From: an uncultured Granulosicoccaceae bacterium
GTDB taxonomy: Bacteria; Pseudomonadota; Gammaproteobacteria; Granulosicoccales; Granulosicoccaceae
Direction of reading: 5' to 3'
DNA: 64,000 nucleotides
Assembly: GCA_937922675.1 (NCBI GenBank)
Contig: CALAJN010000007.1
Location: 1-64,000 of the forward strand
The translations under genes and the position numbers were made by a program. Below the pieces are notes generated by a model. That model was not told the DNA's origin, ran no database searches, and was given only the letters and a program-made list of their open reading frames with translations. Shown here in pieces: positions 56,715 to 59,762 of this stretch. Numbering within the stretch: position 1 is the stretch's first letter; each line of letters begins with the position of its first letter.

Positions 56715-58010
56715 ATGGACATGAACGAGCAAGCCGTGCAGTCCGCTGACCCTGAACAGGTCAAAAATGTATTGGAGGCCTGTCTTCTGGTGGCAGGTCG
56801 CCCGATGTCACTGCGTGACCTCGAAGTGGTCTTTGAAGGCGACAGCGTGCAACCCAACCGCGATGCGCTGCGTACCGCGTTGACAAGCCTGCAAGGGGAA
56901 TACGAGTGCAGGGGCATTGAGTTGATAGAGGTCGCCAGCGGTTGGCGCTTGCAATCCCGTAGCAGCATGGAGCCTTGGGTTTCAAGATTGTTTCAAGAAA
57001 AGACGCCGCGTTACTCGCGTGCGCTGCTCGAGACTCTGGTACTCGTTGCTTATCGACAACCGATCACCCGAGGTGAGATCGAGGAGGTTCGCGGTGTAGC
57101 GGTGAGTTCCAATATCATCAAGACGCTACAGGAACGCGAGTGGGTCAAGGAAGTGGGCCACAAGGACGTACCGGGTAAACCCGCATTGCTAGGTACAACC
57201 AAGCAGTTTCTTGACTATTTCAATCTCAAGAAGCTGGAGGACCTGCCTACGCTCGGTGAGCTCAAAGATATCGATCAGATAGACGCAGCGCTTTCTGCGG
57301 AGTTGGCAACAGAGCTGGGTATTGTCGACGCTGCAACTGACACCCCCGCTGCTAACGATGAAGGCGATACCTCGGCAGTGGAGTCGACTATTGGTGCCGA
57401 GCCGCAATCGACGGATCCTGAATCTGCTGAACCGGATCCCGATGCTCGTACCGATACCCCCGTCGATCAACAATCCAACCCTCAGGGGCTTGTACTGCCA
57501 GATGCGAGAGCAGTTGATCTGACACCCTTCCGTGATCCTGACGGGCGAGTCGAGCCCGATATGGATCTTGGCAGCGATGATGTCGCTGATGACGATGGAG
57601 ATATCGCAACCGATGTCGGTCCGGTACAGAGCCAGGACACAACTCAGAGTGCCGATTCAGAGCAAGGTGTGCATGTGCAATCTGAAGTTGATGTCACCCC
57701 GATACCGGAAACAAATGGCATAACACCGGATGCGTCAGAGGATCCTCAGGCCAGACTCAAACGCGTCATTGATCAGTTTGCCGCTGAACATCGAGCAGAC
57801 CTTGATGCGCAAGAGCAGGCCAATCCGACACCCAAGACGCCAGCGCAGCGCGAGCCAGCGCCTTCTGAAACCTCCGCTGACGCGCCAGCTGCCACGCCGG
57901 TTGAATGGTCAAGCCAGCACCGTGGCGACGCACGCACACCGGGCGTGCCCGAGTTGGAGACGGAATCTGCCGACACTCCACCCCCGGAGCGCGACGACAA
58001 TGTGCCTTGA
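56715..58010 (+). CDS. scpB: ScpB with a long acidic C-terminal extension
   Basis: 431 residues. The ScpB core covers the first 190: VKNVLEACLLVAGRPMSLRDLEVVF, ETLVLVAYRQPITRGEIEEVRGV, IKTLQEREWVKEVGHKDVPGKPALLGTT, FLDYFNLKKLEDLPTL. About 235 acidic, Pro/Thr-rich, disordered-looking residues follow. The stop TGA 58008-58010 is followed by C, and the same frame then stays open to 59192. Confidence 0.92.
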   Translation: MDMNEQAVQSADPEQVKNVLEACLLVAGRPMSLRDLEVVFEGDSVQPNRDALRTALTSLQGEYECRGIELIEVASGWRLQSRSSMEPWVSRLFQEKTPRYSRALLETLVLVAYRQPITRGEIEEVRGVAVSSNIIKTLQEREWVKEVGHKDVPGKPALLGTTKQFLDYFNLKKLEDLPTLGELKDIDQIDAALSAELATELGIVDAATDTPAANDEGDTSAVESTIGAEPQSTDPESAEPDPDARTDTPVDQQSNPQGLVLPDARAVDLTPFRDPDGRVEPDMDLGSDDVADDDGDIATDVGPVQSQDTTQSADSEQGVHVQSEVDVTPIPETNGITPDASEDPQARLKRVIDQFAAEHRADLDAQEQANPTPKTPAQREPAPSETSADAPAATPVEWSSQHRGDARTPGVPELETESADTPPPERDDNVP

Positions 58011-58187
58011 CTAGCAAGACAGGTCGATGCAACGCGAAGGATCGCGGTTAGTTACGAGGGAGTAGGCGAAGAGCCCGAAAAGGCTGCTGAATCGGCAGCA
58101 TCTCGGCGCTTCTTTCCCAGTGAAAAACCCGTAGGTGCGCAGCTTGGCGCTGGTGCAAAGCTCACCGAGCGTGAGGTCAATCTTGGG

Positions 58188-59192
58188 TTGGAAGTGGGTG
58201 TTGAACTGGCACGCATTGTTGGTCGCGTTGAAGCTGATCTCCCGCCCGAGTCAACGTTTGAGCACAACGGCGACACGGCTGCACAACACAAGGAGAACGC
58301 TAACGATCAACTCTCGGTACTCTCGCCGTATGATCTGGAAGTCGAGATCGCTGTAGAAGCGGTTGCATCCGTTGTTGTCACTGGCAAATCCGCTGACAAA
58401 CCCGCTGACGATGTCGCCAACAGTGCCGCTCGAATAGAAGGCGAGCTGTTGCAGGAAGCGGCAGCGGTCGATGCACCCGGTCCTGCTCATGATGACATTG
58501 ATCTCGTTCTTGAGGCTGCTACCGCCCGAGCAGTGGAAGCCGTTGACAAAATGCCTGTCAGCGCAGTGCAACATGAAGCAGCGGTGCATACTTCGTCGTC
58601 CGATGCCGAGACTGCTTTTGACACTGCGCCTGTTGATGCTCAAGAGACGTCGGAGGCGGAGATACACAAGGCCCCGCTAGATGTACTGCTGGATCTCGGT
58701 GAGGAGCCTGATACTCAGGTGGTACTGGATGAAGAGGGCAGCGAGAATGAAGAAGGCAGCGAGCATGAAGAGGGCGGCGTTAGCGTCTCGCTAGCCATCA
58801 TGGCTGGTGGGCGGCCACTGCCTGCTAGTGACACCGACCCGCAGGCCACTGACCTGGACGACCTTGTCAACACAGATGATGCAGGCTTGAGCACTATTCT
58901 GGAGGATGTTGATACCACTCAGTTCGTTACAAACGTCGAGGCAGATCTTGTGGTGCCTAGACAAGCTGAAAGTCTGCCGATTGCGCCGACGGCGGGGACC
59001 TCTGCGCGAACAATGGTCGAACAGACATCACAGACAGTGATTGAGCACTCGGATGTGGCAGTGCAGTCCTCTGAAACATGGCCGGTAGCGTCGAGCCTGA
59101 GGCCAAAAGGTTTTATCAGACGTGCGCTGTCCCGCTTGGTCACTTTTGTCAAGTCGGTTCCTGCGCGGCTGTCGCAGTGGATACGCCGCTAG
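58188..59192 (+). CDS. Acidic low-complexity protein in frame with scpB
   Basis: The frame is open from 58011, directly after the scpB stop and in the scpB frame, but has no ATG, GTG or TTG until TTG 58188, which lacks a ribosome binding site. The product is acidic and repetitive (Glu-Glu-Gly-Ser-rich near residue 190). It ends in a basic amphipathic tail (FIRRALSRLVTFVKSVPARLSQWIRR). It may be the second half of a longer ScpB reached by UGA readthrough or split by a nonsense mutation, or a separate gene. No known family. Confidence 0.45.
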   Translation: MEVGVELARIVGRVEADLPPESTFEHNGDTAAQHKENANDQLSVLSPYDLEVEIAVEAVASVVVTGKSADKPADDVANSAARIEGELLQEAAAVDAPGPAHDDIDLVLEAATARAVEAVDKMPVSAVQHEAAVHTSSSDAETAFDTAPVDAQETSEAEIHKAPLDVLLDLGEEPDTQVVLDEEGSENEEGSEHEEGGVSVSLAIMAGGRPLPASDTDPQATDLDDLVNTDDAGLSTILEDVDTTQFVTNVEADLVVPRQAESLPIAPTAGTSARTMVEQTSQTVIEHSDVAVQSSETWPVASSLRPKGFIRRALSRLVTFVKSVPARLSQWIRR

Positions 59193-59210: not shown

Positions 59211-59762
59211 CTATTCCTCTGGACTGCGCAGCAACACGTACACCGCGCCGGTGCCACCGTCCGAGGCACGTGCCGAGCAAAACGCCAGCACGTGCTTGCT
59301 GCGTTGTAGCCAGGCATTGACCGCAGGTTTCAGTCGTGGGCCGTTGTCGCCGCGTCCAAGGCCCTTGCCATGAATGACGCGCACGCATAGTCTGCGTTCG
59401 GCGCGGGCGGCAGTGAGAAAGCCACTCAATTCAATACGGGCGTCTTCCACAATGAAGCCGTGCAGATCAAGCTCCCCCTGGATGGAGTAGCGCCCGCTCT
59501 TGAGTTTGCGAAGCACGGATCGTTGCACGCCCTCTCGTGTCCAGGCGAGGTGCTCGCCGGTCTCCAGAAAATCGTTTTCTGAAAGCTCGGACAACAGTGC
59601 CGCCATGACCGAACGGTCATCGGCGTCGCGCTGGCGAAGACGCGGCGCCGCAGGGCGCGGCGGTGTAGTGTGGATGCGGTCGTCGCGCACCGGTTTTACC
59701 TCTCCGACGGCTTCCCGAAAGAGCGACATGTCGTCCTCACTCACTGTTTTTTTGTCGCCCAT
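59211..59762 (-). CDS. Smr-domain protein (SmrA/SmrB-like)
   Basis: 183 residues. C-terminal Smr domain with GELDLHGFIVEDARIEL, RVIHGKGLGRGDNGPRLK and GGTGAVYVLLR. The N-terminal 90 residues are basic and charged. Relatives are nucleases, including SmrB, which cuts mRNA at collided ribosomes. Convergent with the acidic ORF and divergent from msrB. Confidence 0.9.
   Translation of the reverse strand: MGDKKTVSEDDMSLFREAVGEVKPVRDDRIHTTPPRPAAPRLRQRDADDRSVMAALLSELSENDFLETGEHLAWTREGVQRSVLRKLKSGRYSIQGELDLHGFIVEDARIELSGFLTAARAERRLCVRVIHGKGLGRGDNGPRLKPAVNAWLQRSKHVLAFCSARASDGGTGAVYVLLRSPEE

Follow-up and report, generated by a model that had tools for sequence, protein, structure and literature searches.

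Candidate programmed UGA readthrough at the end of scpB in a genus of Granulosicoccaceae

We found that scpB, in a 64,000-nucleotide stretch of contig CALAJN010000007.1 from an uncultured Granulosicoccaceae bacterium (the window), ends in a UGA behind which the same frame continues as a conserved coding extension, and that this arrangement recurs across its genus. The comparison makes it quite likely that scpB of the genus is a programmed-readthrough gene, whose minor, longer product would add an acidic linker and a terminal helix. Programmed readthrough that inserts ordinary amino acids is well known from viruses, animals and fungi; a bacterial housekeeping gene combining a conserved leaky UGA, a selected RNA element and a long extension would, to our knowledge, be a rare example among cellular genes. 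If this reading is right, bacterial UGA-readthrough signals could be tested directly in a simple reporter, a cell would have a means of tethering a minority of its condensin, and the long protein will have been missed wherever the extension is overlooked or called a separate hypothetical ORF. Searches of the open-access literature, preprints aside, returned nothing for Granulosicoccus with ScpB or Granulosicoccus with readthrough; for ScpB with stop codon and readthrough, only a CRISPRi-TnSeq screen matched.

The scpB frame and its stop codon

On the forward strand, positions 56715-59192 form one frame broken by a single TGA, as the first-pass annotation had proposed: scpB itself (56715-58010) encodes 431 residues up to the TGA at 58008-58010, and the extension (58011-59192) encodes a further 393 before a TAG. 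Residues 19-180 of the scpB product match the full Pfam SMC_ScpB domain (PF04079; E 5.8e-52, 175.9 bits against a cut-off of 27.4), which places the protein in this family, and an acidic tail follows the domain. Alignment and a structure model place a conserved helix in this tail before the stop, outside the Pfam domain (ARLKRVIDQFAAEHRADL; 57744-57821, forward strand, model residues 344-369, with counterparts in relatives); its residues L348, F355, E358 and H359 are invariant in nine aligned read-through proteins.

The first in-frame ATG, GTG or TTG after the window's TGA is a TTG at 58188, so the earlier claim that 177 bases behind the stop lack a usual start holds. In one genome alone, an open frame of this kind is not beyond chance: across 400 kb of the window genome, 29 of 526 ORFs (at least 150 aa, with shadow ORFs and scpB itself included) have at least 200 open in-frame codons behind their stop, and in six of these 29 the first in-frame start lies at least 26 codons downstream. 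What raises the case above chance is the comparative evidence, consistent in all 19 copies from 18 genomes.

The genus is represented by 27 genomes in our collection, 24 of them with scpB (G001, G004 and G014 gave no match). Every one of the 19 copies from 18 of these genomes (G022 has two) uses TGA as the scpB stop and has an open frame immediately after it. For 16 of the 18 genomes a single contig spans the ScpB domain, the TGA and the beginning of the extension. The contig carrying the domain is interrupted in G012 and G016, where similarity of the tail alone links scpB to a stop on a separate contig; in the second G022 copy, only 39 codons precede the TGA. The two G022 copies of the element are similar and lie at different contig ends, perhaps reflecting two strains in one bin. 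In the other six of the 24 (G005, G006, G015, G017, G039 and G041) the contig runs out before the scpB stop is reached, and these were left out of the counts.

The relatives are mostly fragmented assemblies, with a single contig in one of the 26 other genus genomes. Short coding repeats (EGA, ESA, SEQ, EVP, EAP, DA) occur in long runs in their scpB tails and extensions, and the repetitive tails weaken alignments and dN/dS estimates there. In eight of the 24 genomes the domain-bearing contig ends inside the scpB tail, visibly within short coding repeats in five of the eight.

Conserved RNA behind the stop

Across the 19 copies, the region behind the stop shows conservation at the RNA level. A conserved nucleotide block occupies the 36 bases that follow the TGA (58011-58046, forward strand; codons +1 to +12, beginning MURGCWAGR), and together with the stop its opening motif reads UGA-(C/A)U(A/G)GC(U/A)AG. 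The base after the TGA is C in eight copies and A in 11, and nothing else; UGA-CUAG occurs exactly in seven copies, the window included, UGA-AUAG in 11 and UGA-CUGG in one. The TGAC that had been singled out as a weak context is present in the window, but it is not the conserved part.

Constraint is also visible in the codons themselves. Codon +1 is ATA in 11 copies, CTA in seven and CTG in one; Ala +2, Arg +3 and Ala +12 are invariant residues, with Ala +2 encoded only by GCT or GCA and Arg +3 only by AGA or AGG, two codons that together make up about 10% of Arg codons in the window genome. Over codons +1 to +12, amino-acid-keeping comparisons use the same codon in a fraction of 0.728 (659 of 905; 17 copies), compared with 0.516 in the highest of 197 windows of the ScpB domain (15 genomes), and by codons 18-29 the fraction is down to 0.43. 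The near-duplicates G019 and the second G022 copy were set aside in this test, as were G012 and G016 on the domain side.

RNAalifold predicts one hairpin at the end of the block, pairing alignment columns 41-45 with 50-54 (CGCGA-AGGA-TCGCG at 58033-58046, forward strand), with its first base 22 nt after the UGA and with two covarying pairs. The compensatory changes run from C-G to A-U in three copies and from G-C to A-U in five of the 19; on the ScpB tree, they correspond to at least two changes at the first covarying pair and three at the second, one of these being the unpaired state of G040. The covariation score was matched by none of 500 shuffles, and the count of pairs changed on both sides, which is two, is not above shuffles (184 of 500 reach two). 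The loop-closing pair 45-50 is broken in four of the 19 copies and pair 44-51 in a fifth (G040). For the 14 copies in which all five pairs form, 1.0-3.3% of draws of random synonymous codons match the observed pairing; for the other five the figure is 10-13%. Besides this hairpin, a search for a wider helix gave no second conserved stack of at least four pairs in 135 columns.

We regard the hairpin as a putative, unproven stimulator of readthrough. Stimulators are not known to start as far as 22 nt behind the stop; because it is short (five pairs) and begins at that distance, the hairpin may work by some means other than obstructing the entry of the ribosome. On the other side of the stop, the codon before the UGA is CAT, CCT or CCC, giving Pro in nine of 19 copies and Glu-Pro in seven of these nine, and Pro or Glu-Pro before a stop slows termination in E. 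coli.

A profile of the post-stop element, built from 15 of the 19 copies, recovered the other four. The 19 copies score 51.8-84.1 bits, and the next matches in the genus score 27.5, 21.3 and then at most 17.6 bits; the 27.5-bit match, the only one below 51.8 bits that was read, has no TGA. Against 369 genomes of the class, under stricter filters, the best match after the window's own scores 25.3 bits.

The extension, its terminal helix and its origin

Stop codons and substitution patterns indicate that the extension is a conserved coding sequence in the scpB frame. Over the first 150 codons after the TGA in the 19 copies, frame 0 contains no stop, whereas frame +1 contains 125 and frame +2 contains 256. 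Twelve of the 19 extensions are complete, at 229-760 codons, and the other seven hit a contig end after 153-500 codons. All 12 computable pairs (13 were tried) have a lower dN than dS across the aligned extension; over its first 60 codons alone this is so in 12 of 13 pairs, the exception being G009/G021 (0.332 versus 0.323), which fits expectation if synonymous sites near the stop are constrained.

In the window, the extension has a net charge of -52 without its last 42 residues, and its last 32 residues carry +9, bearing out the earlier description of an acidic second part with a basic tail. The window protein has no Pfam family in the extension up to E 1. The structure model of the read-through protein has a mean pLDDT of 43.7, mostly low in the extension, and is useful only for local helices; the acidic linker is probably disordered. 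One such helix is modelled at residues 801-824 (block pLDDT 74-79), within the basic amphipathic C-terminal end RPKGFIRRALSRLVTFVKSVPARLSQWIRR (59100-59189, forward strand).

A basic amphipathic helix with G-x-x-x-R closes all 12 complete extensions, with the G visible in 11 of the 12 aligned ends and one slice starting after it. In 10 of the 12, no more than 3% of 500 shuffles match the helix moment (5.6% in G011 and 5.0% in G013). Moment and charge are high in all 12 ends, but similarly high charge-moment scores are seen elsewhere in some extensions, for example in G008 and G021. A profile of the C-terminal end also matches ends at contig edges in G015, G018, G020, G039 and G041, weakly in G020, G039 and G041 (E 0.002-0.02) yet recognisably when read; it thus located the extension end in three of the six genomes left out of the counts (G015, G039 and G041) and found none in the other three (G005, G006 and G017).

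In its domain, then, the protein is an ordinary ScpB, the SMC-ScpAB condensin subunit, and the extension is what sets the genus copies apart: it is absent from all 18 sister-genus scpB ends that are visible (two of 20 loci run into a contig end, and a 21st genome has no scpB match). These 18 end in TAG (13), TGA (four) or TAA (one), with at most 65 open codons behind. The last two residues of ScpB are LH or IH in all 18, whatever tail precedes them, and ...TLH stands directly before the TGA in 10 of the 19 genus copies, so the TGA seems to mark the point where ScpB ended ancestrally and the extension to have arisen downstream of it. Scored without the clade G005/G017, the ScpB tree needs no more than one gain of the extension; it is built on one short domain, leaves 13 of 38 inner branches open and places the genus in an unresolved fork with sister rows G396 and G394. 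Among 80 named scpB loci in the outgroup search, four have the motif and belong to the genus, two reach a contig end and the remaining 74, from more distant gammaproteobacteria, lack the motif. The frame behind the scpB stop is open for at least 148 codons (up to 619) in 11 of these 74; eight are the next gene with its own start, presumably RluB-like, and three look like shadow frames.

Proposed readthrough and its alternatives

A lone in-frame stop in one genome could be a recent nonsense mutation or a sequencing error in a decaying pseudogene, and the first-pass annotation had offered mutation as an option beside UGA readthrough. The same TGA, its following motif and the open frame are common to all 18 checkable genus genomes, and ScpB of sister genera ends at the corresponding ...LH or ...IH; this excludes mutation or error, to which we leave virtually no probability, whereas the readthrough option is supported by the comparison of sequences. 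The original observation has been strengthened by the relatives, which add three things that had escaped it: the hairpin and the terminal helix, both conserved, and the apparently ancestral position of the stop. A UGA with a conserved hairpin behind it, and GG in or beside the loop, might also be read as a selenocysteine codon with a bacterial SECIS. We consider this extremely improbable, as positions 57900-58300 have no Rfam match up to E 1 and tRNA-Sec exceeds the cut-off in two of the 15 genus genomes searched and falls below it in the window genome, for which selenocysteine at the scpB UGA is ruled out unless it has a tRNA of an undescribed kind. The two tRNA-Sec matches above the Rfam cut-off (G002:C67 and G011:C109) indicate a patchy selenocysteine trait. 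Reassignment of UGA to Trp, or an altered tRNA-Trp, was likewise rejected as far as loci resembling the query tRNA-Trp go: the tRNA-Trp of the window genome is ordinary, with a CCA anticodon and a 5-bp anticodon stem, and TGA is a common stop, ending 341 of 526 ORFs in 400 kb (shadow ORFs included). Among these loci, the anticodon is CCA in seven of seven scanned and the stem has 5 bp in the three that were drawn, the window genome included; reassignment would call for a UCA anticodon, or for CCA on a 4-bp stem.

The downstream frame could instead be a separate gene, translated by re-initiation or from its own start inside the extension, which we judge unlikely. The first in-frame starts lie 51-186 nt after the TGA across the 19 copies, and several starts have an SD-like match (the window's TTG at +180 with GAGGT, GTG at +78 in G008 and G019, ATG at +162 in G009, G021 and G040, and ATG at +105 in G012), so that local initiation may occur in some copies. 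Yet when relatives were searched for a clear start with a ribosome-binding site, which would mark a gene of its own, no start proved common to the 19 copies; the first starts vary in codon and place, and the block ahead of any of them is conserved, open and in frame. A frame shared with scpB is nothing that re-initiation would require. Genuine downstream genes in the outgroups, by comparison, start near their expected N-terminus (eight of 11 loci). Re-initiation at a near-start codon right behind the stop is suggested by codon +1, since ATA, CTA and CTG are all near-start codons, but CTA, present in seven of the 19 copies, is not a usual start codon. According to a review, some cases taken for readthrough could instead arise by stop hopping within the frame (PMC5009743); a hop over the scpB UGA is opposed by the codon before it, which is not repeated at codon +1 in any copy. 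We hold either route, near-start re-initiation or hopping, to be highly improbable.

Programmed readthrough of the UGA remains our preferred explanation, and its marks are present together: in-frame conserved coding sequence, the same stop in 19 of 19 copies with A or C next, and a conserved 3' RNA structure. Most ribosomes would stop at the UGA and yield normal ScpB (431 aa in the window), while a fraction would pass it, most likely via near-cognate tRNA-Trp, to yield a long ScpB (825 aa in the window). We propose that the leaky context (UGA-C/A, UGA-MURGCWAGR) and the short hairpin behind it allow this. In E. coli, UGA with C or A as the next base has been described as leaky (PMC5289835); a reporter study ranks G worst and T best as the next base, which makes A and C intermediate there, and reports that Trp is most often inserted at UGA in E. 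coli and that more reporters show readthrough in the cold (PMC11126739).

The added part would consist of an acidic linker, long and probably disordered, with the basic amphipathic helix at its end, and this helix could hold a minority of SMC-ScpAB complexes at the inner membrane or at some other anionic surface. A membrane tether is perhaps the best fit for the helix, which may alternatively bind nucleic acid or a protein partner. We infer readthrough as the mode of translation, as we do Trp insertion and tethering by the helix. More tentatively, the condensin may exist in two forms, one with free ScpB and a minor one tethered to the membrane, in which case termination efficiency, through temperature, RF2 level or growth state, would set how much SMC-ScpAB is anchored.

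The arrangement has partial counterparts elsewhere. Four mammalian genes (OPRL1, OPRK1, AQP4 and MAPK10) use a UGA-CUAG readthrough motif (PMC4132726). The scpB gene resembles them in the motif itself (seven of 19 copies), in a conserved coding extension and in nucleotide conservation after the stop, and differs from them in being bacterial, in having mostly UGA-AUAG, in an extension of hundreds of residues and in its conserved hairpin; we take the scpB motif to be of independent origin. Drosophila and viral cases of readthrough with a 3' RNA structure are named in the same paper (PMC4132726), Firth 2011 being a further reference. These share with scpB a leaky stop followed by conserved RNA structure, whereas the scpB hairpin has only 5 bp, begins 22 nt after the stop and is a putative stimulator. 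The prfB (RF2) frameshift likewise takes place in a chromosomal gene of bacteria, at a UGA whose context is weak; there the ribosome shifts +1, whereas the scpB frame is unchanged. According to a review, no known RF2 gene swaps the shift for in-frame readthrough (PMC5009743).

The extension is followed, after a gap of 18 bases, by a convergent gene on the reverse strand (59211-59762), which we take to be Smr-like. In several sister genera, read by eye, a similar reverse-strand frame follows soon after scpB with no extension between them.
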